From Diadema setosum (Eukaryota; Echinodermata; Echinoidea; Diadematoida; Diadematidae): 64,000 nucleotides of DNA. The DNA lies in the NCBI RefSeq assembly GCF_964275005.1, contig NC_092700.1, positions 17,703,649-17,767,648 on the forward strand, given 5' to 3'. Made by a program: the position numbers and the translations under genes. Below the pieces are notes generated by a model that saw nothing but the letters and a program-made list of their open reading frames with translations, had not been told where the DNA came from and ran no database searches. How positions within the stretch are numbered: the stretch's first letter is position 1; each line of letters begins with the position of its first letter. Of this stretch, positions 9,692 through 44,857 are shown piece after piece.

Positions 9692-12600
9692 TCAGTACAC
9701 TGAAGCTTCTTTCAGGAGGAATGCAACGCAGACTGCCAGACTGCATACCACAAAGCCTACTGCTAGATTGATCCCGACCCGACGCATCGACTGGGGAAGC
9801 AGGAACGTGGAGAAGATGGTGGTGATCTCAAACAGCCAATAGGAGATGAAGAGGTAGATGGCCGTCGCCAGGGAGAAGTTCAGGAGGGGGTATCCAGGAA
9901 TGTAGGCAATGAGCTCGGTGGCATTGCCCTGGAGAAAGATGTGGAGCTGGGAGATGTACGTCTCCAGGGTGATCTTGCCGAGGAAGGTGAAGAAAGCCAG
10001 GTAGCGGGTGCGCAGCCACGGCGTCAGGTTGCGCAGCATGAGGTAGCCGATGATCGGGAACCACGACGTGTACGGGTGGAGGCGGTTGTAGTCGTACTTC
10101 TCGCGGAGCATGAACTCGCGGTACCAGATAACGGCCAGCACGAGTATGAGTCCGACGATGAAGGCCTTGATGATGATGGAGAAGAGCATGTCGCGCCGGT
10201 CGACGTGGCGCTTGTCGAGGTAGTTCATCCAACGCTCAAAGTGGGGATAATTGTACGCGCACAGCATCCCAACGAAGCAGGCATAGTGGTCGAGACCGGC
10301 TCGAAACTGCCACTCGTGCATGGAGCCCTGGTAGCCGAGCACAAACCAGAGCGGTCGGAAGGCGTACAGGAGGAGGGGCGTGTCAAAGATGATGGCATTG
10401 CACACAAAGTAGGCCACAAACTTGGCTGCCATGAAGAGCGGACGCTCGTTCCAAGAGCGCAGGACGAACATGAAAAGGTAGACGGAGAAGAACCAGTAGG
10501 TGTGCATTGCACAGATGTAGTACAGCATGTAGCTGTTGTTGGTTGTCATCAGAACCATAATGACAAGAAAGTTAAGGCGGAAGAGCATCTTCATCATGCG
10601 CCACAGACTGTAGTCCTTCCTGATCCAGAAGAAGGAGAAGTTTCCTAGGATGTATAAACAAGAATATAGTGCAATATATAGGACAATTCTTCTTTGGGAT
10701 CTTGAACATTGAAATACAGAATATCCATGTACAAGTTAAAAGCGTGGTATAATTTCAGTTGATATGCAGATTCAGGTTCTAATGTTTTTGCGAGCTGAAA
10801 ATTGGTTTTGAAATGGCTCAGATATAAAAAAAAAAAAAGAGGTCTTAATAAAAGGTGGGTGATGGGACCCACCTTTTATTAGGACCACTTTGTTTTGCTT
10901 TGTTTTTAGATATCTAAACCATTTCAAAACCAATTCTCATCAAATAAACTCTGAATTCTTTTTGGAACTGTATGTTCTTTAATAATCAAAATAAGTGATT
11001 TCTAATTATCTTGCAAAAAGTAAAACCTGAATCCGCATTTCAACAAAAACTATACCATCCCTTTAATTGTAAATACATCTATCCCAATAACCACAATTCT
11101 TTTCATGACACCAGCAATTACGATATATAATACAATGAGTATTGTGGATGCCATTGTGGAACAGCACCTTTAAGTCAAAGAAACCAAAAACTGACGGGCA
11201 GACTAACATAATACTTGTATACTGGTACGTACATGTACCAGTGTAACTGAACCTAACTAACTTCTATCGAAGTTAATTAAGCGTGGCAATTGGTGAAAGT
11301 TGCAGTCAAAACAACTTTTCTTTCTTTTTTAATGTAGCATCCCTTTTGCCACGTCATGGTGCTCAGAGCGGCTTACAACTTATGAATACCCTTGTCACTG
11401 GTATCGCTTAATACAATGTACATTGTTCCAAAAAAAAAGTTCAACTAACGATTACGAACCTTCTGAATTATGAACCTTATTTCATTTTTGGATTAACGAA
11501 CCTTTGGAATAACACACCTTCTACATTTTCAAACAACAATCCTTTGGAATAACAGATCTTATTTCATTTTTGGTGCGATAACAAACCTTCAGAATAACAA
11601 ATATCACCCCTGGTATTATAATCCACAATAACTAGAAAAATGACTTCACCTCCAGCGAGTGTTCCAGGCAGACGTCACACACACTGTAATGGCCCATACT
11701 AATCACTGGTGCCCAGAGGTCTCTGTACTAGGCACGTATCTATACTTAAGGTATACACCTCAAGTAAGAGAAGAGCGCTCACAAAAAGAGTGTCCTACCA
11801 TGTATGTAGAAAACAAGTGCCCTGGCAAGGCTTCCCCTCCCCCCCCCCCCCCCCCCCCCCCGTGAACCCTGAACCTTCTTATTGAGCGTGTAGTTCACTA
11901 ACCACTAGACCTACATGTACTTGTAGACACTGTGAACTAAAACTTGTGAATATATAGAGCATCCTACCCACAAACCAAGCACCATGTACTGTACGAGCTG
12001 AAATTTTCACGGTGGTTTTATTTTCGCGAATTTCGCGAATCGCCTTTGAACCGCGAAAATAACAACACGCGAAAATAACAACGCGCAAATAACTAACTTG
12101 TTCAGTTAGACCCTCACAACCGCGAAATTAACAACATGCGAAAATGTCCTCCAAGTAGCAATTCGCGAATATATCTGTACGCGAAAATTTCAGCTCGTAC
12201 AGTACCATGGGAGGATATGAACCCTAGACTTTCTCATATCCACGCTATTCACTACACCTAGACATATAAGGGCTTTGACTGGTTATAACTTTTCAACTGT
12301 ATGCTTTTTCAACACATATGTAGTAACTAGCCATGCTGCATTCTTTGATGGCTCTCACCGAAACCCGTCATCCAGACGTAGCAGGCAATGTAGACACGCA
12401 CAAGGTTGTACGTCTCCGCCGCCTTGAAATAATGGTACCAGACAAACATCACTTGCATCCATCCTTTCCACTCCTCCGTTTGGTCCCTGAAAAATAAATT
12501 CAAGAAAGTGAAAGAAAGTTGCCTATGAGTAAGATTTACAACTGAGGAAATAGTGAGGAAAAAAACAAAAACAAAATATAGTATACTGTAACAACACAAC

Positions 12601-15600
12601 ACGCAATACATAAATTGCTCAGTGAAAATCAGATCACAGCCATAGGAAAACTGCACTGTAGGTTAAAGATTATGGCATCTCATCCAAAATTAGTGGCACA
12701 AAATATTGTTTTGACATAGATTAGTGTCACATAAAGAACCTTGAAATTTCTCCTGAGTGCAAGTTTTGAAGAAAATCAGTCCAATGATTAGTGAAAAACT
12801 GTGACTATTGTACTAATAATTGGTATCATGTGCCTTAACACCTAGATATCTATAAACATTGCAGCCTTGTTATCTTTCCATCTACGTTGTAGGTACATTC
12901 TAATACACTTCACAACAAAATGTTACATAATGATCCTCTTTTTCTTCAATGAACACAAAACAGAATCTGTGCGATGTCTACATTGAAACATATAAGACTG
13001 CATTCATATTTGGCTTCTCATGGAAGTCTTTTTTTTTTCAAAAACAAAAATGTTTCAAGCAAAATGTATCAACATCACTTGACAATAGTCACCTGTACAC
13101 AGTAACTTTTATTGATAGAGTACTGTTTGAATTCTATTACGTAATACTCGTATAAGTCTTCAGAGGTTAGCATTTCCCAGGTGTTTAAGGCAGTGAGGTC
13201 ACATAATGAAATTCAAAGTAGGTGAAAATTCCAAGCAGTCCAAGATTGTTATAAATACCCGTATCAGATACCAGAAACCATCCTTTTCAAGTGTGACGGC
13301 AGTGAATTATAAATCTCCAATGTCTAGTGATTGGGAAGACGACGCTACCTCTCAGCCCCCCTCCCCGCGGGGAGATCAGGGCATGGAAGGCCGCCTTGAA
13401 GCTCAGGCCATGGAGATCCGTAAACTTTTCGAGACACTCTCCCACTTCTTGGATAGAGCGGCGCCAGACCACGGCGATGACAAGAGGCATGTGTGCCATG
13501 CCGGCTCGGGCAGGAGAGTTCCTCCTCCCGACGATTTGTCTAGACATGCGAGCCATGTCCGCGGGGACAGGGGCGCTGCCCTGCCCACCGAAGACTTTAG
13601 CGATCTGATCAACCCCATAGGAAGCTCATGGGACGACGGTATTCTCAGCCTCTTTCCAGGCGACCCCGACTGCCTCGCCCTGGGAGGTGACTCAGCTTCT
13701 ACGGTTAATAGTCGTGTCGCTAAGAATTACGACCCGGCTGAATTCGATTCAGACGTCATGCCCACACAACCTAAGTCTGATACCGAGCTGGATTTTGACA
13801 ATGACATATATGACACTAACTCTGATTTTGGCCCGGCCAAATTTGAAAAATTGGCTGATTTGCTAACGAAGGCGGTTACTTTGCCTCCCAAGAAGGAAAG
13901 CCTCGATAAAATCGCCGAGCGCTACCAAACGCCATCAAATGCTCAAGCAGCTTGTACACCTAAAATCGAAAGCGAAATTTGGGCGACTCTCCCCGGCAAA
14001 GCTCGCGGCATTGATGCGAGCTTTCAACGGCTACAACAAAATGTTGTGAAGGGCCTTCTACCTTATGGGGAAATCCTATCTGAGATTTATGGATCATGCA
14101 CGAAAAATCAGCCAGTTGACACTAAGCGAATCAAACAACTCGCCATCAATGGCCTAACACTTCCCGGCTTTGCTTCATACGAACTGAGCATGCACCGTCG
14201 AGCTAGCCTGAGACCTTTTCTCAACCCCAGATACAAAGGCTTGTGCAGCAAATCGACTCCGCTTGATAGTAAGCTGTTCAGGAAAGACCTCCGAGAAACC
14301 TTGGCAAGCGTCGCACAAGCATACAATGTGGGTCAGAAACTATCCACCCAAGCCGGCAAAATGCAACGATCAAAAAGGATGCGAAGCACCCCCTTTCAAC
14401 CCTATGGCTACAAACAACGACCATCTTGGCAGAGCCAGAGGCCCAGCCGTAGATTCCCTCAGCAGTGGCATCGGCTCCCAGTATCGGGCGGTCTCAACAG
14501 TGCCACGCCCACCCCCATCACCCCGGCGCACTCCGACGGATACACGTCGCAACATGGTGCCCGCAGCCTCGGCTTGCTTCCCATCAAAAAACTAGTAAGT
14601 CCAAAACCATTCAAAGCTAGAAATCTCAAGCTTTTCAAAGATGATTGGTCAAAAATATCTTCAGATTCTTGGATATTAGATACAATATCCGGCTACAAAA
14701 TCGATTTCATTTCAACCCCATACCAGCCAATTCCTCCACCACAAAGTTCACATTCTCCCGAGGAGGAGAAGGCAATCGACGAAGAGTCATCTAAGCTTAT
14801 CTCAATGCAAGCTATTAGAGAGATTTCTCATTCCGAGTGCCAATTCATTTCTACTATTTTCACAGTCGCCAAAAAGACTGGCGGTATAAGACCAATCATA
14901 AATTTGAAAAACTTGAACAAGTTTGTGAGATATGAGCATTTCAAAATGGAACAGTTTCATCTGATGAAAGATTTAATTTTGCCTCTGGACTTCTTGACTA
15001 GCATTGATCTTAAGGATGCATATTTTTCAATTCCCATCCACCCTGCTCACCAAGTGTATTTGTCTTTCGAATGGAAAGGGCATCTTTACTGCTTTCAGTG
15101 CCTTCCCTTCAGAGTTCAGCCCCACGGATATTCACTAAGGTTATGAAACCCGTTATTGCCTCAGCAAGGAGTAGAGGCATTAGAACGATTATATATCTAG
15201 ATGATATTCTCATTCTTTCTCGCACTAGAGAAGAGTGCCTCGACAACACTAATTTCATGATCAACCTGTTATCCTCCTTGGGGTTCTCAGTTAACTTTGA
15301 CAAATCCCGTTTAAACCCAAAACACGCCGAGTCCTTCTTGGTTTTCATATTGATTCGCAGCAAATGAAATTCAGCTTGCTTCAAAACAAGATTGACAAAA
15401 TAACTACCCTTGCAAATTCAATCTTGTCTAAAGAAGAGACCATAATTCGGGATTTAGCCAAATTCATTGGCCTTGTCATATCTACGTTTGAGTGCTTCCC
15501 ACAAGGAACATTACACTTTCGTCACCTGGAAACAGAAAAGACAAATGCTCTACGTAATGCAGAAGGTGATTTTGACGCTTTAATTGCGTTATCTAGTCAT

Positions 15601-18600
15601 GCTAAACGAGAAATTCTTTGGTGGCTGTCTTGCAAAGTCGAAGAATTTGCCACCCCATCAACCCTGCCCCTATTAGCATAACAATCTCAACTGATGCTAG
15701 CATGTCCGGATGGGGAGCGGTCCTGAATAATGACAAATCCTTTGCTCAGGGAACCTGGACTGCCAAGGAGGCTTCCCTGCATATTAATGTGCTTGAATTA
15801 CTGGCAATTCAGAACGGTCTTGAGGCCTTGTGCAGCTCATGTACAAACGTACATATTCATATTCAGTCTGACAACACCACAGCTGTTTCATACATAAACA
15901 AAATGGGCGGTAACATACCCGAATTGAATAAATAACAGTCGACATTTGGAATTGGTGTCTAACCTCTAATAACTGGATGTCAGCTTCACATTTAGCAGGT
16001 GTAGACAATTCTGAAGCTGACTGCTTGTCTTGCAGAGACATGAACAAAGAACTACAATTATTACCTTATGTTTTTCATGACATGATCTACAAACTCCATA
16101 CACTCATTGTCCCTGATGTTGACCTCTTTGCGTCTCGCTTCAACAACCAACTCCCTTCCTATGTAACATGGAAGCCTGACTTAAATGCCCTGGCCTCCGA
16201 TGCCTTTTCCATACCTTGGAATGTTTTCACCCCATACATTTTCCCCCCATTCTGTCTCATCCCCAGGGTCCTCCACAAGCTTCAACTGGACCAGGTGGAC
16301 AAAGCACTCCTCATCGCCCCAATATGGCCGGCGCAGCCATGGTTCCCGACACTGCTGGAAATGATAACAGCCCCACCCCTACTACTCCCCGAGAGAAGCC
16401 TCGCCCCACACCCCCACCCACCAACAAATCTTCGGTTAGCCGCCTGGGTGCTCTCCGCCAGCGATGGCAAGCGACAGGCATATTGCAACACGCTGCAAAG
16501 CTCCTTTCATCATCATGGCGAGACAATACCAACAAACAATATGAGGGCGCTTGGAGACAATGGCATCGCTGGTGTTCTGAACAACCTTGTGATCTCTTTA
16601 ACCCATCAATAGAAAATATTGTGAACTTTTCAAGCTATCAGCATAGCTTAAACAAAACCTACTCCACGATTAACTCGTATAGATCTGCTCTCTCATCCAT
16701 ACTACCTAAAATTGAAGGGTACGACATTGGCAAACACCCCCTTGTAATCAGACTTATGAAGGGAGTATTTAACTTCGACCCTCCTAAGCCTAAATACAAC
16801 AAGACTTGGGATGTTGCAATTGTTTTAAATCACTTTGTATCACTTCAGGATAACCATGAACTTTCTCTGCTCGCCTTGAGCCAAAAACTGCTTTCATTGC
16901 TTGCACTCGTCTCGGCCCAGCATTCACAAACGCTGAGGTACCTTGATCTTAACTTCATGACATTATCGGCAGACGAGGCGACGTTTCACGTTAGAGATAC
17001 ATTGTATTCTTAAAACTACTAGTGCTAAGATACAATGTAGGTATTTCTAACCAAGTGATTAAAGTGCCTTCTTTCACATCCAATCCTAAACTCTGCGTGT
17101 TATCAACTCTTCAAGAGTACATCAAACGCACAGAACCTCTCCGACGAGTCAGTTCAGAAAGCAAACTCTTAATTTCTACGAAGCACCCACATAAATCGGT
17201 GACAACAAGCACCTTGGCGCGGTGGCTAAAAGCATCCCTCGCGGCCGCAGGTATTTAAACACTTCTACATTCTCAGCCCATAGCTACCGAAGCGCCGCAA
17301 CTTCTAAAGCTTTCGCACATGGAGTAAGTCTTAACGAAATCATGTCCACAGCTGACTGGATGAACGCTGGTACTTTTCGAACCTTCTATCTTAAGCCAAT
17401 TGACTCCACCTTTAGCTCCACAATTCTCAGTTCTTCTGAGTCAAGGCAGGCACATGTAAATTGTGGTATGTGATATATGTACATGTTTGATGTGAATATC
17501 TGGAGAACGATGTCCTTAATGATAGCAATACGAGTCAGATAAAGCCACAAGATACGTGCATTGGGGTATGCCAACACCTTAACCGTTCACCCGTTTAGCT
17601 TTACTTTGAATTTCATTATGTGACCTCACTGGGAAATGCTAACCTCTTCGACTTATACTTCATTATTACTAATAGAATTCTAATTATACTTAATATTATT
17701 TGTATAATATAGGAATTATCCAGGATAGCAGTAAAAATTATAATTGTACATTGTATGGTAAACAGTTAATGTCATCATTTAAGTGTAAACAAAGGTGTGC
17801 CATACACCAGTCAGCAAATTGATTTTAAACATAATAATCACACAATGGTGGCACACTGTTTAAATGTTCACCCATGGGCAGAATTCTTTGCCATACATGG
17901 GAGTACCACACATTCATGCTTACAATATTACGGAAGATACTAACAAGCAGAACAATGACACAACATTTTTGGCTAATCAAATGGAACACATTTTCTTTTT
18001 TTCAATCTATGCTACCAACAACACTCAGTGCCAACAACAAAACTCCCTGAAACAGATGACTGATAATTTGCAACATACACATTGTACGTGGAAATGTGAT
18101 TTTAAAGGACTCACGACGTAATGAAATTTGTGGTCTCTGAAAACATTTTTGAAAATGATCTGTAGAGATCTCCATTACAGGTTTGGCAAAGTCGCCATGA
18201 CAAGAAGATGAACAAATACAATGTACGCTTTCAGAATACTTCAACTGTAAATCCACATAACGTAACATCTGATGCCTTCTGTTGCTGGAAAAATGTCTAC
18301 ATCTGTTCTAACTGTACAACATCATGTACGAGCTTGAAATGCTACAATTGTAGAGGAATTGAAGTCTTTCATTAATCAGCATTTCTGTGGAATATTTTGT
18401 ATCATCTGTCCTCTCTGACCTATCATCATCCACAAAATAAAGAAAAAAAGGGACAAAAAAAAAATGTTCCCCTTTTATTAGAAGAATATACATATATGTG
18501 CACTCAACAAAACATTAGTTGCATTTTCTGGGTGCACTGTCTCATACACTTTCTTTTTTTTGTTTCCTTCTAATAGTTGATGTCAAATCTTGAAACCATA

Positions 18601-18976
18601 TTGTTCAGAATCGAATGCTTTTAACAACAGCTCTAGATGGTCATGCTACTTTGTACAATGTACAGTATACACCCAGTTGGCACAACTGGCATGGGATACT
18701 CAATCACAAAAAGCTGGCAGCAATACCTGGAAAATGGACAGGAGGGGCAGTGTTGAAAGGCCATGACCTAATTAGGTCTGGAGGCAGAAAAAGACACGAC
18801 CAGTCATATTTTGGGGCCAAGACAAAATTCTTCATTTTTCATGGTGTGATTTGTGACAATCCCCCAACCCCCCCCCCCTCCTCCCCAGCCATTCAAGTCA
18901 TTTCTAAAAAAAAATTTTCTTTCTCATCCACAACCCATTTCCGTGTAAGATCATTGCCACTTTAATATGCTATTAG

Positions 18977-19011
<35 letters not shown>

Positions 19012-22000
19012 TGCATCACTATACACAAACTACAAATGGTGGTCACAACAATCTGCAGCATGGTATGGAGGTTTAGGTACGGTAAAACAAGATATTTTCG
19101 CGGCATGAAATTTTCATGAGTTGCCTCTAACATTCAATGCATATCATATAGTGTAGACAACTGTATACGTACTAATGGTATACGTACTGTATGTACACAC
19201 ACACACACTTATACAAATATATCGTCGCTGGCGCGACAAGACATCGTATATAAAAGTCAAGTGTTCAGGAGAGCCAAAAATCATAGCGGCCAAAGCACTG
19301 CACAGAATGGGAGAGCCTTTCCTTGGACATGCCGTGGTGCTTTTATTTTTGGGGTAAGACAGTTACAGTAGGATTTGGACTACCTAGGACATCACTTGAC
19401 CGATTATTTGACCATTAATAAAAAAAAAAGTCATTTTCATTCACCAAAATTTCAGATACAAGGTCTTGTCAACCCAGCGACGATATGATGTTAAAAATGA
19501 ATCTGAGACAGATCAAGCACTGCTGTTATGTTGACAGCCAAAGACTCAGCGACCAGACTAAAGAGAGTGCAGCCTTGAGATGGCATAACGATCTACATCC
19601 AACCTCACTTCCAGTAAATCGAGTTTGAAGTTTTGCAAATCTACAGCTGTTTTTCTGTTTTCGCACAAAACTTCATATCTTACCCTAGGACCATGGACCA
19701 ACAACACTATCAAATACAGTGCATGAAAATTGATCTCACTTGACCCTTCATTTCGAGAATAATTTGCATTTAATCAAAACATATTGTTTTGCTATCTCAA
19801 CATAACCACAGTATCGCCATTGATATGGCAAAACAATGTAAGTCTCAATTACTAGCATGCATATGATGTATTACAATGTCAATATGCGCATGCTTCTGCA
19901 GTCGCATGCGGCGCGCAGTCTATTACTGCGTAAACATGGAGATGGCAAAACAATGTATCGGTTGCCACGTCCATTGCAAATTGCAAAATTCGCGAGATGT
20001 TATTTTCGCGAACCGACGCCGACGCTAACATAAATGCGCTATTACCCTAGCGCATGGAGACATTTTCGCGTGCTGTTAAATTCGCGATGCAACTGAGATT
20101 CGCGAAATTCGCGAAAATAACAGATAAATACAGTACCTTGTTTTCTGCTTCATGGACAAATTTTGTTGTATACAATGTACACTCTACGTATGGTTTTCTT
20201 TGTAATAAGAGCTCTCACACTGAGAGTACTGCTACTTTTCCTTTTACATTGTATTCCTTTTGGTGCATTATGTTACTTTTTCCTCTGTTTCTCTTCTAGT
20301 TCTTGGCCATGCTTGACATAAATACATTGTATATGATTCATGAAATAAGCATTTAAACAGATCAAGGGAATAGATCCAAATTCAGCAAATTTTTTTTCGT
20401 ACACTGTGTGGGTAATTTCTCTGGTAGGAAGCGTACAGTGAGCTTACATAGAGTGAATTTTAATAAATGCTGATGAAGGTAAGGAGCATGGCAAGTTGAG
20501 CCAAGTGTCTTGATGCTAAAAGGGTTTATAATTGGGAGGGATACCAAGTTTACATTAAAGAGGATGAGGGTTCCTTGTTCCAGTCTTGTAATCTCTGTTG
20601 AGAGGTCTATGTGTTCACTTTTCTTTCCAAGGAAGAGTGATACCCCCAAAGCACTTTTACAAGAACTAATCTGCTGGATTCTTTCAAAAGCAAGCTGGTA
20701 GAAGCAGGGTTTCAGAGGAATTTCACTTTGTGTGCAGGCAGGCATGGCTGCAGGCAGGCATGGCTGCCTGATATTCACAGCAATTTTAACCCGTTGAGGA
20801 CCCTAAATGCGTGGGTCTCATGCAGAATGTGTGAGACTTGGTGGCTCTGATTTATGTAAGGGGGGGGGGGCACTTTCAAAATATTAAAGAAGATAAGATG
20901 ATTCAATGGGTTATGCAGTGAGTCAGGTACAGTGTACATTGCTATGTCAGTGCATCCCAACTCTTGTTTAATAGTATGCATACTGAAGCTGGACAAATTT
21001 GCAGATGTTGTGGGATTTTATATCCCCTTATGCTAGATAAATTTTGCAATAAACACTTTGTACCTACAATACATCTTATGCTAGCCATACATTTGCAATT
21101 TGCGACGATAAAGGAAATGTTCTAATTCCATTCTGATCATATAAAGGTCTGGTTATTTGTCAAGACACCATAATTAACACCAGTGGAGTTTCTTAGGCTG
21201 CAACAAAACATTGTACTTGCTTTGGATTTTCATTGGCTTGTATCTGTGCGACTGTATGGCCATCACGTGTCAATTTCGGGACAGTGTGAAAGAATGAATG
21301 CTTCTATTTCTAAAGCAAATGAACCTGTGACCAAAGTTTTAAAAGTCCTCTCCAAAGTAATATCACATGCAAAAAGGATTATAAAGTGCTTTGCCAAGGG
21401 ACACAAACCACTGTCACTCAAAGGGACTTGCATTAAACAATCTGAGTGGAAATCATACCTGTTGAGTATTTTGTCAGGACAGGTCCGTACTGTGAAGGTC
21501 ATGGCCACGAGAAACATAATGAGCACAAGGAACAGGAACTGGTCCCTGACGTAGACCCTCTCCGCAGCCGGAAACCCCTTCAGGACGTCGCAGTAAAAGA
21601 AGTAGAGGAGGATAGCCCCGAGCGCCATGGTGTACAGCAGGAAGGTATTTAACGTGGGAGGGGGCTTAACGTTTGAAAAGTTCTTTTGGGCGGTCTCTGC
21701 AGGTGACCTCCCCTTGCCGGAGGCTTTGCTCTGCAGCAGCCGAGCACCATCTCCATCCTGAGGCTGATCTGTCACTTTTGCCGCCGGTTCCTCAAACGCT
21801 GCCTTCCCGTTCGGGAACTCGTCCTGCGATTTCGTCTGCTGGACGTCTCCGTTGGCAACTTTGACGGCCGAGCCGTGCAGCGGGTGGTCGTCTGCTGATA
21901 CCTGCTTCCTCGCAGGCTTGGTCGCTTTGCTTTCGCTTGCTTCCTCGTCCTTCCCGCTTTCCTCTTCGTCCATTAAGTTCCGCCTCTCTTCTCCCACTTG

Positions 22001-22237
22001 CAACAACGACTCCACATCCTCGATCACTACCGTGACTTGCTTTCGACGCGCGTACAGGAGCCGGATGCCGAGCACGACGCATGCCACAACCCACAGGATG
22101 AAGAGGGTTGCTTGGGGTATCGTCAGCCTAGTGAGGTCTTCCGCATCCTGTGCCGATGTGAGGTCGCTATCCCTCTTTGTGAAGTCCGGATCGCTGCGGG
22201 TGTGACTGTGCCAGTGACCTTTGAAGAGCACCTCCAT
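9692..22237 (-). CDS. RWA/Cas1p-type O-acetylation membrane protein, three exons
   Basis: Coding exons are 22237-21459, 12486-12359 and 10644-9692 (stop at 9692-9694). All junctions are GT-AG and the phases join exactly (AAC AG|G GAC; TTC G|GA AAC), giving 619 aa. The product is a Golgi-type multi-spanning protein of the Cas1p family, which supplies or transfers acetyl groups for O-acetylation of glycans. One membrane segment lies at about residues 42-63, then a charged Lys/Glu-rich stretch to about 194, then a dense run of membrane helices. Family motifs visible are [53 protein letters not shown] and [15 protein letters not shown]. As I recall the families, these match plant RWA more closely than vertebrate CASD1. 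No SGNH esterase domain is seen. I chose the ATG at 22237 because a strong pyrimidine-rich acceptor at 22305/22304 opens an exon with stops in all three frames before it. If instead an acceptor at 22246 is used, upstream coding exons would be needed and none are visible. Intron 1 contains a DIRS element. Confidence 0.88.
10741..11063. mobile_element. Palindromic MITE family copy A ('ggttttgaaatggct')
   Basis: The inverted centre gggtgggtgatgggaccc-like stem is flanked by aattggttttgaaatgg and ccatttcaaaaccaatt; it ends with accatccctttaa. Two more copies are at about 31347-31742 and 44386-44768. It lies in the last intron of the RWA-like gene. Confidence 0.8.
11436..11610. repeat. Degenerate array of 'acgaaccttnggaataa' words
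   Basis: Several near-copies of acgaacctttggaataac alternate with ttatttcatttttgg. The same words flank the LTR element (25605-25620 and 29599-29630) and recur at 30215-30260. Confidence 0.6.
11872..12265 (-). repeat. Two tRNA-like (SINE) fragments flanking the MITE
   Basis: On the minus strand, about 11872-11925 has tctagtggttagtg then ggttcagggttcac, and about 12210-12265 has taggtgtagtgaatagcg then gggttcatatcc. Both resemble box A / box B pairs of tRNA-derived SINEs. Neither folds convincingly as a true tRNA by eye. Confidence 0.35.
11989..12202. mobile_element. Palindromic 'TTTTCGCG' MITE, copy 2
   Basis: Same ends and TA borders as 6758-6968, in opposite orientation by internal sequence. 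It lies in the intron between the second and third coding exons of the RWA-like gene, between two tRNA-like fragments. Confidence 0.88.
13150..17658 (+). mobile_element. DIRS-order (tyrosine recombinase) retroelement, broken
   Basis: About 4.5 kb, lying inside the first coding intron of the minus-strand RWA-like gene and pointing the opposite way. Inverted terminal repeats lie at 13150-13220 and 17602-17658; they agree almost completely apart from a short extra stretch in the left one. Parts in order: gag-like region (about 13206-14590), reverse transcriptase with a YLDD motif (about 14590-15370), RNase H (about 15660-15940), a linker typical of the order, and tyrosine recombinase (about 16450-17430) with the [11 protein letters not shown] motif. 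It is a fossil with several (about five) interruptions of its reading frames. Full length with well-matched ends suggests moderate age. It is outside the host exons, so splicing should remove it. Confidence 0.88.
17659..21458. other. RWA-like gene intron, part between the DIRS element and the start exon
   Basis: No exon is seen. The stretch contains a long A run at about 18976-19007, a CA run near 19195-19210 and a piece of a 'ttttcgcg' MITE (19973-20135) whose other end may be at about 19077. The remainder is AT-rich and unassigned. Confidence 0.6.
19973..20135. mobile_element. Fragment of a 'TTTTCGCG' MITE
   Basis: Contains gttattttcgcg, gcgaaattcgcgaaaataac and ends aaatacagtac. A possible matching left end (ggtacggtaaaacaagat then attttcgcgg) is at about 19077-19107, which would make a 1.06-kb element. 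Confidence 0.5.
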
Positions 22238-22304
22238 AATTTGAGCTAATGTCACCAAAGATCTACCATGAATGAGTTGTTTGATCACTCCTGCTTGTCA
22301 CCCT
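22235..22304 (-). other. 5' untranslated part of the RWA-like gene's start exon (predicted)
   Basis: On the minus strand a long T-rich tract ends in ACAG just before 22304, a textbook splice acceptor. The 67 nt between it and the ATG at 22237 contain stops in all three frames, so the stretch cannot be read from an upstream coding exon. It holds a short out-of-frame upstream ATG followed quickly by a stop. I read it as the end of the 5' leader. Confidence 0.55.
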
Positions 22305-22542
22305 CTGTAAAAAAAAGAAAGAAAAATAATTAAATTAAAAAATAGACATACACAACAAAAAGCATTTAAAACAAATAAGATATTGAGCATACCTCACTGA
22401 CAATGGCCAGAGCAACAAAAAAAAAAAAAAAAAAAAAAAAAAATCAATTAAATCTGCAAAATTGGTAGGAAAGAAAAAAACATAGTCAGAACAGATCTAT
22501 CTTAAACTTTTGTCATAAAATGTTGATTACATTTACATTATA

Positions 22543-22726
22543 CAGGACTTGGACTCCTGTTATAACGAAGTCCTCGGGACCGGATGTTTTCTTTCGTTAT
22601 ATTGAAATGTCGTTACAACCAAGCAAATAAACAATGAAAATAGATAGAGTGGATAACGTTTCACCCTGAATTTTTACTTCATTGTAACCGGAATTTCATC
22701 GTGTTCGTTATAACGGGAGTGCACTG
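22543..22726. mobile_element. Tc1/pogo-like MITE ('gttataacgaa')
   Basis: Ends CAG..actcctgttataacgaa and ttcgttataacgggagt..CTG are inverted and bordered by TA. The start of another copy (cgcactcccattatagcaaa) is cut by the right edge of the window at 63974. Confidence 0.75.
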
Positions 22727-22974
22727 TAATAGTAACCCTGGCGGGGTCCCATTTCTTAGGGGACTATAATGGCATGGAATGCGCTCCCAATCAGCATCCT
22801 GGCCTCCACATCAATAGAAGCCTTTCAGGGTGCACTCGCATCACTCAACCACTAAATGATGTGGCATTTTTTACTTGCACCTTGTACTAAAAGCACCGTC
22901 TGTCGGCACTGCACGGGACACTCACTATAGATTCTAGTCCCCTCGACGCTACATTCAGAGTGATGGATCCTGTC

Positions 22975-23120
22975 GAGTACCAAAGTAGAAGTAGAAGTAG
23001 CGATTCTTGCTGCAATGGCAAGTGTCATGGTCATGTCAAGAATCCTGATTGGCTGTTGCTACAAGAGGTTGCTATTCTATCAAGAACTGCTATCTTAACA
23101 TCTTTTATGAAATGAGCTCA
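22975..23120. repeat. Diverged relative of the MITE at 56711-56869
   Basis: Shares gattggctgttgc, gaggttg, and tcttttatgaaatg in the same order, but lacks a clear left end. Confidence 0.5.
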
Positions 23121-23859
23121 TTTGTGTGCAGATTGGTATTAAAAACAGATCATTCAAAATCACACTTTATTCTCATTGAATAGTATTCTTTTTCCTGGTG
23201 AGCAACTGCAATCAACTCTACTACATTGTTCAATCTTGTAGTTCAGGTAATTGATACTATACTGTATAGAACACGTCTATAGTGCCCATGGTTATGTCAC
23301 TTCAGAGGCTGGCAATTATGCACACAATACCTCTGCTCTGGCTCATATCTTGTCAAGTGTAAATAAAAACAACAATGAAAAAAAAAAGAAAGAAATGAAA
23401 TGGTGTTGGCTGGGCTCTACACCAACATGTCATTATCAACTTTTCCTGAAAATTTAATCCAAATCTTTAAGTGTTTGAGTTATTTTGCAAGCAGACAACA
23501 AGACGTAAATTTACACAGAGAGACGACAAACCAAACCAACACAACACTGACAAAACATAACCTCCATCTCCATCATCATCGCATGGCAAGGTAAAAATGG
23601 GCAGAGGTTGCCTGCTGCTCATTCCTTGTCACTGACTTGATACTTATATTAGATCGTTCATAGACATAACTTACTTCTTTAAAATTTAGTATGTTATCAT
23701 GGATTAATAGTATGATATTGATACGTACAGCCGAACGACTGTTCAATTGTTCACCACTCCAGCAGGCTCCTCTGCATTTTTATCCTCTCTCCTACTCAAG
23801 GGTGGATAAACACATAAAATATGAATCCAAGACCTGCAGTTCAGTGCTGCTACGACGGA

Positions 23860-24310
23860 CTATGGTACTCAGCGGCGATTCTTTTAGTCCCAATTCTCAA
23901 GAATGGTGGACGACAGCAGGAGTTAGTTCGGAGTGTTCGTGAATCCGCCGGTTCTACTGGTTCGGTTCGACGTGATCAGCGTGCGTCCGCGAAGGTGCGC
24001 ACGGGCCAGGTACCGCGGATTAGTGGTTGTACTGTCGCTAGAGTAGGGACGAGGTGACTAGCTCGGGTTGAGAAAAGGAAGGAAGGAAATACAATTAGAT
24101 CTATATTACTTGGCGGATGTCCTCATAACAGTTAGTACGCGTAGTTATCGGATCTATTCCGCCTGTCTTGACCACACATCGGCGTTAACAGTCAGTGATC
24201 TCTCTACACAGAGTGATCGTGGAGACTTAAAAAAAGACAGAAAGGAAAAGACAAATTCGCTTCCGATCCAGACGTCCACCTTACCGGCCGTTTTTGCTTC
24301 CCAGGATATT
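23860..24310. promoter_or_regulatory. CpG-richer island, possible 5' exon/promoter zone of the RWA-like gene
   Basis: This stretch is clearly richer in C+G and CpG than the AT-rich flanks and lies 1.6-2 kb upstream of the start exon of the minus-strand RWA-like gene. No TATA box or initiator could be fixed. The link to the gene rests on position and composition only. Confidence 0.2.
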
Positions 24311-24358
24311 AACGCCCTCTAACGACGAAATATGTTGCAGGTGCTAAGCTAGCGATCT

Positions 24359-24542
24359 CGGGCAATCCCCCCCCCCCCCCCCCCCCGTGCCCTTCCTCTA
24401 ATGATCTGACCCTAAGAATCCTAATCCTAAACATATTCCTGACGGAAGACCCTAACCCAAACCGTTACCCTAAACCTAACCCTAACCCTAATCTTTACTC
24501 TACCCTTATCACTAACCAGTATTTAGCCGGGGGATAATTGCC
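24359..24542. mobile_element. Second copy of the telomere-like-repeat element
   Basis: Starts gggcaatccccc with a C run, continues with ccctaaccctaa-like repeats, and ends ctaaccagtatttagccggg then ataattgccc, matching 8073-8217. Confidence 0.6.
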
Positions 24543-25106
24543 CTCCGGGCAGTACTGTAATTGCCCCGATGATGCGGTTCCAAGGTTTCCTTGGATGTTG
24601 AATCGATGAATCCAGGGAGGTGAGACACCTCCCTGACTCCGACTTCAGTGCATTATGGATGACGGCCATAAGGGGGGGGGGGGGGGAGAGGAGGCTTCTA
24701 AAGAAGAACAAAAGTACTTGCAGTGGGTTATAGCCTACAATTAGCCAGGTGCTTTACTATGTCAGTGTATTATTGATTATCTTTTATTAGAAAAGCCCCC
24801 AATTAGAAATTCCCCTAAAAAAAGAAAAAAAAAACAGCTCTATAGTACCAAAGCGAATTATTTGGTCTGGGCCTATAAGATAAGATACTCAGTAATACTA
24901 ATAGGCCCATACTATACTACCATCTTTGGTAATACTAGACGTCTACGGATTACTGATCTCTATATAGGGTCCTATATTAGTAACACTAACGTACAGTATG
25001 TCAAACAAAATTACAATCAGATTTTCGCATTGATAACACCTAATATGATTAAATTTTCTAAATGCTGCTTCAAGGTCTTAGAATATAACATTTTAGCTCT
25101 ATTTTG

Positions 25107-25315
25107 CAGAAAACCCCATTCGATTTGGTTAAGCGGTCACAGAAAAATGTGGATTGTTTTAAAGCATGTCATGAGTCTGATTCTTCCAAGTTTAGCACTT
25201 CAATGATCTTGTGTGTAAATACAATAGACAGAACTTGGAGGGAAGAGATTCCCGGCATCCTCTACAAATTCCTCATAATCTTAGACCACTGAAGCAAATC
25301 GAATGGGGTTTTCTG
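25107..25315. mobile_element. 209-bp MITE with perfect 'cagaaaaccccattcgattt' ends
   Basis: The left end cagaaaaccccattcgattt and right end aaatcgaatggggttttctg are exact inverted copies; similarity continues inward (aagcggtc / gaccactg). Confidence 0.85.
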
Positions 25316-25620
25316 TAAGATGTGGGAAATGAGATATAGTTTCATACCCTAAATTTGTATTTAGATTGATTCAATATTACATTGCGGAAGGCCCCGTTGT
25401 ATTTTTTTTCCGGGGGGGGGGGGGGACATACGGTATATAGTTTACATCGAGATGAGTGGGTTTCATCACGGAGCTTCCATGATACAGATCAGGATCAGTG
25501 TCGTATTGGTAAGTCCGAAAATGGAATCCTCGAACAACATACTTTATGTACTAAATGTTCGTTAATTTTTATCGGAAAGAGGGTGAGGGAAAATTATAAG
25601 TACTAACAACCTTTCGGAAT

Positions 25621-26035
25621 GTTGTAAGCCGGGTTAATGATGACGCCGACAGTCTCCAGTTGACGTTGCATGGATTTTATTGAACAAATCAAACAGTCTC
25701 AGTCTGCCGATACATGTATAAACTCCGTATCATCCGCATTATCCTCAGCTACATGTCGTAATGCGTCTAGACTCTATACAGAATAACAAATATAGTCGAA
25801 CTTTTGATTATTCGACATCAAAGAGCTCGCAGAGACTATGTCCACGTCCATTTGTCTCACAAGTCAAAATCAAAGTCAAGAATCATTTAAATCTGCGTCA
25901 TCTTCTCATGAAAATAAAAGTTGCGTTGTGCCCATGCCAACCGTAACCACACGCACACTGCGCCATTGGCATGGACACAACGCGCATCAACGCATTGACG
26001 CAACAATAACAGATCGCATATTTCCATTTACCACA
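25621..26035 (-). repeat. LTR, downstream copy
   Basis: Partner of the LTR at 29184-29598, same 415-bp length. It is bordered inside by a purine-rich tract on the element strand (GCGGGGAAG) and outside by the target duplication ggaat. Confidence 0.92.
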
Positions 26036-26600
26036 AACTTCCCCGCGATTATATAACACAACCATGGGTTATATAATCCCAATTACATCATATCATTTTC
26101 ATAACATTGTACATAATAATACATAACAAAAAATTCCCCGCTCTTCATGTCAAATCATTATACACTTTACAGCAATCCCATATAGAGCGGATTAACAGTT
26201 ATAGATAATCACTAAAATATATTTCAGGAAAGCGTGTGTTCCCCGCTTTTCCAGTCAAATATACAAACGCGGAAATACTACAAAATCGAACATTATTTTT
26301 GAAATCTGCCAAAAGCTGAAACTCTTGAACCTTCCAAATTAACAGTAAATCATACAAACTCAGATACATGGCATAAAGGTTCGGGCCAAGAGAATAACAC
26401 ATCAATACGTTATCTTCAGTTCCGCTTCAATGTATAGCTCAGTTCTTCCACATTGTCAGTAAGCAATGTTCAGATTCTCCGGGAAAATGGTCTTGGTATA
26501 AGCCCAGAATAACGTCAAACGTGCCGTAACAGAACAATGTTCTGCGTCGTATATAAAACCATACATTAATGTCTGTATCAATTAAGATTTATATCGAGGC

Positions 26601-26686
26601 ACAACATAGACAGGTCTCTTAATACATATGCAAATTGTACATACAACATAGACAGGTCTCTTAATACATATGCAAATTGTACATAC
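26601..26686. repeat. Two tandem copies of a 43-bp unit inside the LTR element
   Basis: The unit beginning acaacatagacaggtctctt is repeated head to tail (26601-26643 and 26644-26686) in the non-coding part of the element. Confidence 0.9.
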
Positions 26687-27373
26687 AACACGACAACTTC
26701 CCCGCGATTATATCATACGACCCGTATGATAATAATCTATCTTCTAAGAGTAATATTTCTCAATTACTCAATATTACACAATTATATCAGGAAATGCAAC
26801 ACTTAAAACAAAGTGAAGTCACGGAATATTAGAATTCACTACTAACAGAAATGAGCTTCCCCGCTTTAGCAAGCATATAATAATAAAGGTAACTTCCCCG
26901 CTTTATGTGTCATATCGTCACAGTCAACAATTTGCTCATTGACAAAACTTCACACAAATTAAGGGATCATTCAAAGCATGAATTTTTGACCATCTATTCT
27001 CATTATCAAAAGTTTCTGACTCACTGAACAACCACTAATATTGTCAGAATGCCATGTTGTTCAGCTGCCAACAAAACAATTAAAACAATAGCCATAGTTC
27101 CTTCGTTTTTCCGCGTAATAGTGATTTCAAATGCTTTCATATCACTATTCCAATATCTCATTAAAAACTTCTTATCAATCACATATCAATTAAAACAACC
27201 ATATTATACTGATAACCATTTCTCGCATTGCATCTCTAAATTGGCATATAGTTCCTAATTCCATTGCTACTTGAGATGGTACACAAGTTTCAGCTGCAGT
27301 CATGAACGTATATAATTATATACACTGTAAGCGAATCAAGTCACAACGAATTCCATGGACGGACAACGAATTT

Positions 27374-28591
27374 CTAACCTGCAGCGACCAAGCTTTCATG
27401 AAATTTCGGTCTCCAATTGGACTCCCAGGGCCCCCATACCGTTCCCTGAACATGACATCCATTCTTCCACACGTTACAGATAGGTATGCATGCCTCCCTT
27501 GTTATTACATCATTGACAACAATGTTACCATGAGTAATATTCCCCTCTTTTGAAATTGACCACTCCTTTGGCGCTACGTGAGTGCTTGGTGGCTGCACTT
27601 TTGCATGCTTTTGGACATCCTGACCTTCATGTGATAATTCGGGACCCCTCTTGGTACCCTCTCCCACAGGTTTTGCAATTAGACGCACTCCAGCATCTAA
27701 ATCCTTTGCATCAACCTGTTCATCACATGACTCATGTCCATGTCCCCCAGCATCAATTTCTGCACCACCCTCATCTACATCAACGCAACCCAGAATCTGC
27801 GATCCCCCATCCAAAAGAATAGGTATGGCATCCTCCTTCTCCTTTTCAGCTGTATCTGAGGAAAGATCTAGCTGCTGAGCAACCGGGTCGGTGAACATTC
27901 CTTGTGTTCCAGCATCAGCACTCCCAGTTTTCAGCTTATCTCCCTCTAGCATACAATCTTCACGGAGAGCTAACAGTGCTTCTCTCCTAAGCACTTCAAA
28001 TCGGCATCCCCGATTTTTCATGTGCAAACGCCTCAACAAAATTCGTTCCCTCTCATCCCGTGTTCCACTGACAAACTGGCTGGACAGAGCTTCGTCTCTA
28101 AGCTGCCTCAGAGCCGCAGCTTCCTTCTCATCGTCTGCAGCATCTACCGATTTTGCATAAAGACGCATGAGAGCCCTACTGAAGCCTGCCAAGTCTTCAT
28201 CATCACGTTGAACACGTTTATAGAACAAACACCGCAAATAGTGAGAATTCTCTCGACTAAAACACAGACGGAGAGCTTTTACAACCTCTGTAAAACTCCT
28301 CCGCTTCTCGTCCGACAGACAATAGCGAATCTCTTCTCTTGCTGGCCCTATGAGGTTGTTCACTAAAACTCTAGCCTTTTCCTCATCACTTAAACTGAAA
28401 GGCTCAACAGTGAGATTGAACATTTCCATCCAATTAGAAAAAGGTGTTTCTGTGCCATCTTCACAATACCCACTAAACTTTTCAATTAGTGCATGGCCTA
28501 GAGCGAGATTTACACACAATCCTTTCATTGCCTGTCCAAATGAAGAGAAATTATCAATTTGCGCATCCTTATGAACAAACTGTTCACACAT
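27374..28591 (-). CDS. gag-like ORF of the LTR element (405 aa)
   Basis: A single open frame of 405 aa inside the LTR element. The first half reads like a retrotransposon gag: a conserved-looking block around NWMEMFNL, then a helical charged region with motifs such as LRCLFYKRVQRDDEDLAGF and ALMRLYAKSVDAADDEKEAA. The last third is acidic and low in complexity. I saw no zinc knuckle and no protease or polymerase after it. The likely role is a particle protein that lets the element move with enzymes supplied by a relative (inference). Homology to any named gag family was not established. Confidence 0.7.
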   Translation of the reverse strand: MCEQFVHKDAQIDNFSSFGQAMKGLCVNLALGHALIEKFSGYCEDGTETPFSNWMEMFNLTVEPFSLSDEEKARVLVNNLIGPAREEIRYCLSDEKRRSFTEVVKALRLCFSRENSHYLRCLFYKRVQRDDEDLAGFSRALMRLYAKSVDAADDEKEAAALRQLRDEALSSQFVSGTRDERERILLRRLHMKNRGCRFEVLRREALLALREDCMLEGDKLKTGSADAGTQGMFTDPVAQQLDLSSDTAEKEKEDAIPILLDGGSQILGCVDVDEGGAEIDAGGHGHESCDEQVDAKDLDAGVRLIAKPVGEGTKRGPELSHEGQDVQKHAKVQPPSTHVAPKEWSISKEGNITHGNIVVNDVITREACIPICNVWKNGCHVQGTVWGPWESNWRPKFHESLVAAG

Positions 28592-29183
28592 GACTAATTA
28601 CGCAGTTAAACTGACCAATTAAGACACGTCATTTTCAAACATGAAACGTAATGCCCAAATGGCATCATAGGTCCAAAATCTGCATGAAGTCCAATCGGTT
28701 AAACGAAAGTTCAGCATCATCCATTATTTCAGTTACCAAATACTTGCTCAGTGCGTGAGATGCCATATCGCAGCTCTGTAACCGTCGATTTCGCATCCCG
28801 ATTGATGTTCAGCCGCCCCCAACGCACGCCAGCGCACTCCGACGTCCACAGCAAAACTCCCGACGGACCATCATCAGCTCCAGTCTCCAGCCCACCATCG
28901 ACGAGCCTGATCATCATGAAGCTGCCTCACAGAGTAGTGCTGCTCTACCAGGGCTGATCAACGTAGATCGATCTACACCATCAAGATCAAGATCAAGATT
29001 ACCCAGCACTCCTCCATACTCCTGTCCGCTACTAAGTGTAGTCAAAACAGCAGGTCTCCTCGGAGCGAAACGTGGACCATTATTCCGTCATACTCGAGGC
29101 TGTTATTCGTCGATCAGGGTTCTTCAACTGGATGAAGTGGATCACTCCGTCAGGCTGTCATCATCCCACTCCTGACACCATTT

Positions 29184-29598
29184 GTTGTAAGCCGGGTTAA
29201 TGATGACGCCGACAGTCTCCAGTTGACGTTGCATGGATTTTATTGAACAAATCAAACAGTCTCAGTCTGCCGATACATGTATAAACTCCGTATCATCCGC
29301 ATTATCCTCAGCTACATGTCGTAATGCGTCTAGACTCTATACAGAATAACAAATATAGTCGAACTTTTGATTATTCGACATCAAAGAGCTCGCAGAGACT
29401 ATGTCCACGTCCATTTGTCTCACAAGTCAAAATCAAAGTCAAGAATCAATTAAATCTGCGTCATCTTCTCATGAAAATAAAAGTTGCGTTGTGCCCATGC
29501 CAACCGTAACCACACGCACACTGCGCCATTGGCATGGACACAACGCGCATCAACGCATTGACGCAACAATAACAGATCGCATATTTCCATTTACCACA
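29184..29598 (-). repeat. LTR, upstream copy (element reads leftward)
   Basis: 415-bp direct repeat identical in length to the copy at 25621-26035, with one base difference noticed. On the element strand it begins TGTGG and ends TTACAAC. The 5-bp duplication ggaat follows it on the plus strand. Confidence 0.92.
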
Positions 29599-29718
29599 GG
29601 AATTACGAACCTCATACGGAATGGCGAACTTTATTTGAAGGGAAAATCCGGGACAAAAATAGATAAAAGTAAAAGTCTAAACAGAAAGAGTAGAATCTTA
29701 TAAGCACAACGGTGATAG

Positions 29719-30172
29719 AAAGTTTGATCAAAAATCGGATGAAAATCACTGAAGCTATGAAATTGGGAAGTTTCGCTACTTTTTAACAAAAAGTAATGGG
29801 ACACTAAATATGAATATGCATAGAATATAGTGAGTTCAATGTCATCCCCTCACAATTTGCCATACAGTATTATACATGCAGTCATGAAATTTCCAGTTTT
29901 GTTTTTTTTTTAATCAAAGTAAAACGCATGTTAATATGCCCAAGCCTCAAATCCTGATATCTGACTAATCATTATTTCTAAGGTAGTCAGCAAGGAGTAA
30001 AATAATGTTTTACATTAATAAAGCAGAAAATGGATATTTTGTCAATTTTTGTACACAATTATTGTGAGGAGATGACATCATCAGTTCACTTATTTGCATG
30101 ATATTATTTCATATTAACTTTACAATGTCATGACTTACCTAATTTCCCTCCGATTTTGATCAATTTTTTTAC
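29719..30172. mobile_element. Inverted-end AT-rich element
   Basis: gtttgatcaaaaatcggatg and ctccgattttgatcaattt are inverted copies, with gatgacat/atgtcatc words in both halves around a centre near 29940. It directly follows the LTR element's target repeat. Confidence 0.55.
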
Positions 30173-30284
30173 TGTACGTTGTAGTTGTATACGAACATTA
30201 TGGCCTTGTAAACGAATCTCATTTCATTTTCAAAGTTACGAACCTCCGGAATAAAGAACCTTGCCCCCCTAGCTGTCACACTTT

Positions 30285-31060
30285 GTAGGATAAGGCGAAC
30301 GCATGAGAAACGAAAGTCGAGTTTTGGCATCCGTTGATATCCGTTAAAATGCGTTTCATGTCATTTTTATCCTTTGGATTCAATTCAATTCAATTCAATG
30401 TTTTTATTTCATTTTCCGACAAAAAAGATATGAACATCACTTTTTTGATAACATGTGACAGAAATTAAGGTGCGTAAAGTATAACATGAAAGAATGTATA
30501 TACAATGATTGTACCACCTTATAATAATTATACACTATCATATAACTCAAGTGATTAGAAGTAATTATGTAGTACGCAAAATTCGAAAAATGGAGGGACC
30601 CACTAAGAAGACAAAGCTTGTAGATTGTGGGCCCCTCGGATGAACGCTTATCTTCCGGTGATTTCCGTGAGAGCGGCCAGAAAACTAAATTGTGCATGCA
30701 TAAAGTTTTTTTCTCGCTATAAGTTAAGATAGCGCGATCTGACCCTTGTACAATAGTTGTATATGTTTTCTCCTGTATCTGTACTGTAGGGGGCCTACTT
30801 TGTCGTTTTCAAACTGCTAGGCCTCCTGTAGAGTCCGTTGCTGCAAGAGATGGAACGGATGGAACGGATGGAACGGCTATTATGTACAGGACTTCAAACG
30901 CATATTCCCAACGCACGATTCTCTGACGTTCGATGTATGTCTCATGCGTCACCCATTTGTTCCTCGTGCGATTTGTCCTGTGGACATGCGGTTCATATTC
31001 GTTTCTCATGCGTTTTGCGCACGTCCTGTACCTGTGTCCTGTATACACAATCGCCCCATA
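30285..31060. repeat. Probable inverted element with 'cgcatgagaaacgaa' arms, split by a retroposon tail
   Basis: cgcatgagaaacgaa at 30300 recurs inverted at about 30998-31013. Between them lies ttcaattcaattcaatg followed by a stretch (30375-30700) like that at 42907-43210, which I read as a retroposon 3' end. Confidence 0.4.
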
Positions 31061-31346
31061 AGTGAGGTGCGTTGTTTGTTGTTTTGTTCAGCCCCCATCA
31101 TAGACCTTGCGTAGCTCCCCGTACGCTCCGACCTCTAGAGAGAACGGAAACTTTACACTTGGTCCACAGGACTGACGATTCAAACAACGGATGAGCAAAA
31201 TATCGCTCGTTCCTAGGTCACTGGGCCCATCCGGCAAAGTGTGACAGGAGCCTATTAGGAATAATGAACGGTAACCCATTGGGCCTGATATCCTTACATA
31301 AGGACCAGGGTGACTGGGTTGGCATGATGCCACATTAAATCGATGC

Positions 31347-31742
31347 ATGGTTGAGATGGGGTTTCAGGTTTCAAACTTTTTTGTGAGGTAATGAGAAATC
31401 TCATATGAAATATTAAAGAGCATACAATTTTAAGAGGAATTCCAAGTTTATTTTGATAAAAATTAGTTTTGAAATGGCTGAGATATCAAAAAACAAAGAG
31501 GTCCTAATAAAAGGGGGATCCGTCTTTTATTAGAACCACTTTGGTTTTTTTTTTTTCCAGTCATATTCTATATCTTAGCCATTTCAAAACCGATCGTCAT
31601 CAAATAAACTTTGAATTTCGGGGTTTGAATATTCCTTTTAGCATAATGCTCTTTGATATTTTATTAGTATCATCTTATCATCTTGTAACAAGTTAAAAAT
31701 CAGAATCTCCCATCTCAACCAAAACTGTAGAGCCACCCCTTT
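31347..31742. mobile_element. Palindromic MITE family copy B
   Basis: Shares gttttgaaatggctgagatat, the central cttttattaga palindrome and a ccacccctttaa end with copies at 10741-11063 and 44386-44768. Confidence 0.8.
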
Positions 31743-31826
31743 AATAGAACTGTTTAATTGACCACTTCTGGTATTAAAACCATGGGATCGACGGCATACC
31801 TCCGAAGGTCTACACAATGAGAGATA

Positions 31827-32062
31827 TTAAAGGACAAGTTCACCTTCATAAACATGTGGATTTAGTGAATGCAGCAATATGAGTAGAACGCAGTAGTGAG
31901 AGCTTGAGGAAAATCGGACTATTTCCTGAAAAGTTATGAATTTTTGAAGTTTCTGCTCTGTCATTACTGGATGAAGGACTATACATCTTGTGATGTCACG
32001 TGTGTATAGAATGATGCAAAGAAAATACAAAAGAAAATTCAACATGTTTCACTTTTTTTCGC
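31827..32062. repeat. Dispersed repeat beginning 'aaaggacaagttcacc'
   Basis: Starts aaaggacaagttcaccttca and is non-coding. It resembles a dispersed element by its sharp start, but the partner end was not found here. Confidence 0.3.
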
Positions 32063-32177
32063 TGAGTTAACGGGGGGGGGGGTGAAGGTATATGATGATA
32101 ATAATCATTTCCTTCTTGTTTGTTTGGTTGTTTTTTTTTTTACATGGAAGCATTGTATAGTTTCTTTATACATAATA

Positions 32178-32204
32178 ATAATAGTAATAATAATAATAAT
32201 AATG

Positions 32205-32258
<54 letters not shown>

Positions 32259-32356
32259 GTAATAATAATAATCATTATTATTATTATTATCATTATTATT
32301 ATTATTATTATTATTATCATTATTATTATCATCATTATTACTATTATTATTATTAT
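32178..32356. repeat. (AAT)n followed by (ATT)n, a trinucleotide inverted pair
   Basis: About 95 bp of mostly AAT units turns into about 80 bp of ATT units, so the whole can fold into a long hairpin. Predicted ORFs here are all-Ile or all-Asn and not genes. Confidence 0.9.
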
Positions 32357-32645
32357 ATTCCTCTTTTTTTCATTGAAGCAAAAACAAAAAAGCAAGTCTT
32401 CATTATAGCCTGGCGCTATCACTCAATCACGCACTCTATACATGTGCCCTCGTCGAGTGCAGTTAATTATTGTATGTAGTCGGGCGATAAAAACATACTT
32501 GTGGCCATAGATACCTATAGGCTAACCCCATTATCATGATTATGTCGTCTGGTTCGACGTTGACATTCGAATGTAAACAGATGTGAGTGGAACTTATGAA
32601 ATGAGCTGCAGAAGATAAGGGGATCTATTAATAGCAGGCGGAGTC

Positions 32646-32668
32646 TATAAAAAGACATGTTTCATTCT
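32646..32668 (+). promoter_or_regulatory. TATA box and possible initiator of the PECR-type gene
   Basis: TATAAAAAG at 32646-32654 lies 142 bp upstream of the start codon at 32796. An initiator-like TCATTCT follows at 32662-32668, only about 16 bp on, which is nearer than the usual 25-30 bp; transcription may begin a little further down. Context and orientation fit the downstream gene. Confidence 0.5.
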
Positions 32669-32795
32669 GCACTACAAAATACAGTAAATATAGATCACAG
32701 CGAAAAGTTGCTGCTCATGTTGTCGACTCTAAGTGACAGTTGAAGAACTCGTCTTTAGCGACTGGACACCTAAAGTGAAGAAAAAATCGTTCAAA

Positions 32796-41889
<9,094 letters not shown>

Positions 41890-44768: not shown

Positions 44769-44857
44769 AAGCTTCTTTCTCTTTCTGCTTCTTTTTCTTC
44801 TCCTCATTCTGGGAGTAATCTGCCTCCTTTAATACTCGAGATTCTTGCATATATCAA

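Follow-up and report, generated by a model that had tools for sequence, protein, structure and literature searches.

The window analysed here, a stretch of 64,000 nucleotides (C16:17703649-17767648), carries on its minus strand a gene of three coding exons with in-phase joins and GT-AG introns (Table 1). The exons, 779, 128 and 953 bases long, total 620 codons and specify a membrane protein of 619 amino acids; the sequence-only reading of the same DNA had assembled this product, and its exons, joins, stop codon and length were all verified. It is probably a complete echinoderm gene that encodes a Cas1p-family protein of RWA type, made up of the membrane part only; the gene is separate from the host's ordinary CASD1 and predicted to act as a glycan O-acetyltransferase. 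Judged by its sequence, it is a known kind of family member in an unexpected host.

The start codon stands in a context with A at -3 and G at +4. The exon containing it opens after a strong acceptor (last base 22305), and stops occur in all three frames shortly past that acceptor, as had been noted before; 22304-22238 therefore reads as probable 5' untranslated sequence, inside which a 5-codon upstream open reading frame (ORF) lies at 22269-22252. The charged insert of about 130 residues that had been described after the first hydrophobic helix was recovered as well: among residues 64-190, the acidic ones are 10 D and 14 E and the basic ones 12 K and 7 R, and Arabidopsis RWA2 likewise has a long charged stretch behind its first helix. 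The basic start of this loop, YARRKQ, suggests that it faces the cytosol.

Table 1. Parts of the acetyltransferase-family gene and the stretch upstream of it, in window positions.
Feature	Positions	Strand	Details
Upstream stretch	22305..64000	-	SGNH domain sought here, none found
Probable 5' untranslated part	22238..22304	-	same exon as coding exon 1, after acceptor TTTCTTTTTTTTACAG
Coding exon 1	21459..22237	-	begins with the start codon at 22237-22235; encodes the N-terminal tail, the first hydrophobic helix (43-61), the charged loop (about 64-190) and the two helices after it; last codon split (R260); donor GTATGA
Intron 1	12487..21458	-	8972 bases, phase 2; DIRS-like retroelement inside, on the + strand
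Coding exon 2	12359..12486	-	includes VWMTGF, K267 and the catalytic histidine equivalent H278
Intron 2	10645..12358	-	1714 bases, phase 1
Coding exon 3	9692..10644	-	remaining helices, R318, R325, Q535; stop codon TGA 9694-9692

The similarity of the protein to the Cas1_AcylT family is far above chance. Family PF07779 covers residues 173-595 (E-value 3.7e-87; 293.6 bits against a cut-off of 27.3) and the match spans profile positions 46-480 of 482, while the two further Pfam families listed for the protein are both under their cut-offs. A PDB search with the protein yielded no credible relative (best E-value 0.93). The residues R428, K435, H446, R489, R496 and Q714 of human CASD1, all of which matter according to mutation tests described in PMC13043746, correspond to R260, K267, H278, R318, R325 and Q535, and all six are identical. 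The human sequence in this alignment was a provisional one whose numbering was checked: at each of 9 published residue positions it has the expected letter.

Within the family, the protein is closer to plant RWA than to CASD1, as had been claimed, and the RWA-like motifs on which that claim drew are present in it. With provisional reference sequences for both human CASD1 and Arabidopsis RWA2, the core identity over 405 ungapped columns was 44.4% with RWA2, compared with 29.4% with the human and 29.1% with the host CASD1, the latter encoded on contig C24; the two CASD1 proteins share 48.1% over the same columns. The site patterns agree, since 39 columns pair the window protein with RWA2 against both CASD1 sequences and the other two pairings are found in 3 and 2 columns. 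In a quartet analysis with this single plant sequence, the same grouping was ahead of either alternative by 88.9 log-likelihood units. RWA2 and both CASD1 sequences agree against the window protein in 23 columns, and the window protein and both CASD1 sequences agree against RWA2 in 14, so nothing hints at a particular closeness of the window gene to CASD1. The tree of these four sequences is unrooted; it separates two kinds of protein, and the window protein and RWA may either share a unique ancestor or both retain the ancestral state. Viral and prokaryote contigs were also searched for family members and none was obtained.

When the whole genome, 912.7 Mb in 102 contigs, was searched with PF07779, nine exon-level matches turned up in two places, three in the window gene and six in C24:12107652-12131136. 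Spliced alignment of the latter region with human CASD1 produced a model of 22 pieces and 725 residues with no stop, in which the SGNH motifs MGDSRMRQLF and VDGLHL precede the membrane part; the exon edges are approximate, the first piece is doubtful, and nothing in the model corresponds to the first 62 residues of human CASD1. The predicted protein scores 570 bits with PF07779 and 26.8 bits with NXPE4_C, just below the cut-off of 27. By its sequence, this gene is the host's ordinary SGNH-bearing CASD1, the second gene that the sequence-only reading had suggested looking for. Because a separate SGNH-bearing CASD1 is present, the window gene is taken as a distinct RWA-type paralogue and no truncated CASD1. 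At C24:12130851-12130849, the host CASD1 model has a leucine (CTG) where the human protein has R428, one of four basic residues that bind acetyl-CoA.

CASD1 is marked by a luminal SGNH domain at its N-terminus that bears GDS and DxxH motifs, and no such domain could be detected for the window gene. When the window was searched by tblastn with the SGNH domains of human CASD1 and the C24 gene, the best E-values were 1.9 and 1.1, respectively. In spliced SGNH searches of the 41.8 kb upstream, the gene's strand scored 75.5 with the human and 70.0 with the C24 query and the opposite strand 81.5 and 81.0, against 58.5-90.0 in 16 shuffles of the target with the human query and 58.5-68.0 in two shuffles with the C24 query, all of which preserve 2-base blocks only. 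The human SGNH query scored 334 on the C24 gene as a positive control, and a 29%-identical relative of another region was recovered at 262 versus 76 as a sensitivity control. In a further 40 kb upstream, the scores were 93 and 66 on the gene's strand and 65 and 64 on the other. The value of 93 is the highest obtained outside true CASD1; it is close to the 92.5 of the C24 control strand, and its translation contains no GDS or DGxH motif. The aligner was custom-made and in a control run found the three window exons, with the acceptor of exon 2 placed 36 bases too early. Scanning the upstream stretch for GDS and DGxH motifs revealed nothing convincing, and a Pfam scan of 236 upstream minus-strand stop-free ORFs (at least 36 amino acids, low-complexity frames dropped) revealed no esterase at an E-value of 0.1. 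Pfam scans of ORFs are weak evidence here, as the SGNH domain of the host's real CASD1 falls short of the NXPE4_C cut-off even when joined, and the spliced alignment with its controls was therefore relied on. The earlier statement that no upstream domain can be joined to the start exon thus holds in so far as none was found in 82 kb upstream, but the stops after the acceptor are insufficient proof of it: they mean only that the first bases of this exon are unread in frame, and a later acceptor could still join coding exons.

In the open frame of the mitochondrial COX1 gene (contig C102), AAA occurs at five sites, in four cases where asparagine is usual in animals, and ATA at eight sites, in at least five cases where isoleucine would be expected. 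Such a use of AAA and ATA is the code of echinoderms, shared with flatworms (table 9). Together with the whole COX1 sequence it suggests an echinoderm host, in line with the previous assignment of the DNA to an animal. Contamination was set aside as an explanation for the window gene, which lies on a 37.9-Mb contig and has a retroelement inside its intron.

The simplest reading of the window protein is that of a stand-alone transmembrane glycan O-acetyltransferase. If expressed, it would most likely serve O-acetylation of glycans in the Golgi, drawing on cytosolic acetyl-CoA. A 2026 study describes the membrane part of human CASD1 itself as an O-acetyltransferase using cytosolic acetyl-CoA, and reports that CASD1 without its luminal SGNH domain still restores sialic acid O-acetylation in Chinese hamster ovary (CHO) cells (PMC13043746). 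Because SGNH-deleted human CASD1 still works, a membrane-only protein can be an O-acetyltransferase alone, and the earlier argument that an animal protein of RWA type would need a separate partner esterase is not supported. The remainder of the interpretation as an RWA-type protein, comprising the animal host, the closeness to RWA, the lack of a detectable SGNH domain and the presence of a second CASD1, was upheld. Likely acceptors would be sialic acids or other glycans. At least 143 exon-level matches to the GT29 sialyltransferase family were found in the genome, many of them on contigs C13, C15 and C7; echinoderms are said to contain O-acetylated sialic acids (PMC8319020) and are also described as the only invertebrates in which gangliosides have been found (PMC8228791). 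For these reasons, sialoglycans are a fair guess for the acceptor.

Compared with known systems, the window protein resembles Arabidopsis RWA2 as a membrane-only Cas1p-family protein with an N-terminal helix, a long charged loop and the same catalytic residues; it differs in its animal host, its longer charged loop and its coexistence with a full CASD1. With animal CASD1 it shares the Pfam family and the six catalytic residues of the membrane domain, but no luminal SGNH domain was found for it in the searched stretch and the core identity is only 29%. Cas1p of Cryptococcus, known here by description only, belongs to the same family with a shared membrane domain, and differs by the presence of an N-terminal SGNH-type domain (PMC2824669). 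A transmembrane acyl-transfer fold and mechanism common with CASD1 have been proposed for HGSNAT and bacterial AT3/OafB (PMC12423673, PMC13043746), which belong to other Pfam families than the window protein and are likened to it by description only.

Several points weigh against the reading as a stand-alone RWA-type acetyltransferase. The searches would miss an SGNH domain that has diverged strongly or that lies more than 82 kb upstream. The reference sequences are provisional; all three members of the alignment match PF07779, and for RWA2 this match is the only check. Residues 1-172 of the window protein have no Pfam match, and its first helix and loop were placed by hydropathy alone. A simple hydropathy scan showed nine clear helices in the window protein, six in RWA2, eight in the C24 model and twelve in human CASD1; the scan undercounts in RWA2, and RWA proteins are described as having 10 predicted transmembrane helices (PMC6110886). 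As to the human enzyme, H446A is reported to be inactive even with an intact luminal domain, a loss to which folding may contribute, and acetylation of CMP-sialic acid (cytidine monophosphate-sialic acid) by the membrane part was read indirectly, with the authors themselves asking for direct proof of the product (PMC13043746). The acceptor glycan of the window protein is a guess.

Among the other explanations, the protein could be one half of a split system whose other half is a separate NXPE-type partner. Plant TBL partners had been proposed as something to look for, and the genome search with PF13839 (plant TBL type) gave 0 matches; as no control genome gave a match either, this contrast with plant RWA does not prove their absence. 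PF24536 (NXPE4_C), on the other hand, gave at least 27 matches, mostly on contig C17 and for the most part inside one open frame; 24 extend from position 1 to position 219 or 220 of 220. In the eight loci read, GDS was present in 8/8 and a D-x-x-H-P motif in 6/8. The exons of the C24 CASD1 were not listed in this search, so a split SGNH domain can escape PF24536. NXPE proteins are better partner candidates than TBL proteins, if there is any partner. Human NXPE1 is reported as a sialic acid O-acetyltransferase (PMC12216134) and a split model is described for plants (PMC6110886), and a split arrangement of membrane protein and SGNH enzyme is, on the sequences at hand, possible. Against this, NXPE1 was assayed in vitro with free acetyl-CoA according to the same report (PMC12216134), and the membrane part of CASD1 is active even when the luminal domain is missing (PMC13043746). 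We regard a dependence on an NXPE partner as rather unlikely. Humans have NXPE proteins and are not known to have an RWA-type gene, which also counts against it. A wider form of this idea would be that animals can keep a plant-like two-component system beside CASD1, with an RWA-type protein supplying acetyl groups and many NXPE enzymes choosing acceptors, matched to the large sialyltransferase set; this is a speculation, and a slightly less likely one.

Because the tree is unrooted, ancient retention and gene transfer both remain as explanations for the RWA likeness. With a transfer, the window gene would have come from an alga, a plant or another eukaryote, as might be expected from a protein nearer to RWA2 than to the host's own CASD1 and from a gene with only three coding exons, neither of whose 2 introns coincides with any of the 21 intron positions in the C24 CASD1 model. 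However, 56% of the core columns differ from RWA2, which excludes a recent transfer from a land plant, the gene sits on a 37.9-Mb contig, and an old, intron-poor paralogue would explain the data just as well; a transfer is considered doubtful. It is less likely still that the gene is a CASD1 with SGNH exons that are situated at a greater distance upstream or are too diverged to be recognised. The acceptor at 22305 does imply at least one upstream exon, and the C24 gene demonstrates that SGNH coding can be split over many small exons; nevertheless, the 41.8 kb and 40 kb upstream gave no signal beyond the level of the control strand by a method that detects a 29%-identical relative, all three frames stop just past the acceptor, and the genome's SGNH-bearing CASD1 is elsewhere. 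Least of all is a decayed or silent copy to be expected: the retroelement within intron 1 might hint at a pseudogene, but it is confined to the intron, 619 codons are open, the six functional residues are kept, and third-position G+C is 0.76 in the exon 3 frame and 0.61 in the exon 1 frame.

An RWA-type paralogue beside CASD1 would be the favoured reading, and it touches a line drawn in the literature: one-piece Cas1p/CASD1 proteins are ascribed to fungi and animals, and RWA proteins that consist of the membrane part only to plants and green algae (PMC2824669, PMC6110886, PMC13043746). Animal homologues are described as sharing a conserved N-terminal esterase-like domain that plants lack (PMC2824669), RWA proteins are assigned to plants and green algae (PMC6110886), and those of Arabidopsis are presented as membrane-domain-only proteins (PMC13043746). 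An animal with both kinds breaks this line. A literature search found no report of an animal RWA-type gene, although automatic protein-database annotation may already list the window gene. The gene bears on the timing of the fusion or loss of the SGNH domain, and it offers a natural case in which to ask whether glycans of an animal are acetylated by the membrane domain on its own, for which the engineered human deletion is a precedent (PMC13043746).

A number of other features were observed in the window. The DIRS-like retroelement of intron 1 (13197-17473) runs antisense to the acetyltransferase gene and its frames are interrupted; reverse transcriptase (RVT_1) and RNase H matches were obtained among its scanned frames, and a further frame was judged by eye to be tyrosine-recombinase-like. 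On the minus strand, a 407-amino-acid open frame at 27377-28597 gave a PNMA/gag match with an E-value of 2.6e-10 in both ORF sets that include it. At 52751-56097, likewise on the minus strand, there are several open frames that resemble exons of a further gene, situated upstream of the acetyltransferase gene; third-position G+C is high in one of these frames. On the plus strand, a coding-looking frame at 59194-59523, with MASAEGAENVD near its start, had no match in the Pfam scan. Finally, 25722-26053 and 29285-29700, also on the plus strand, contain near-identical stretches in the same orientation, as judged from their translated frames.

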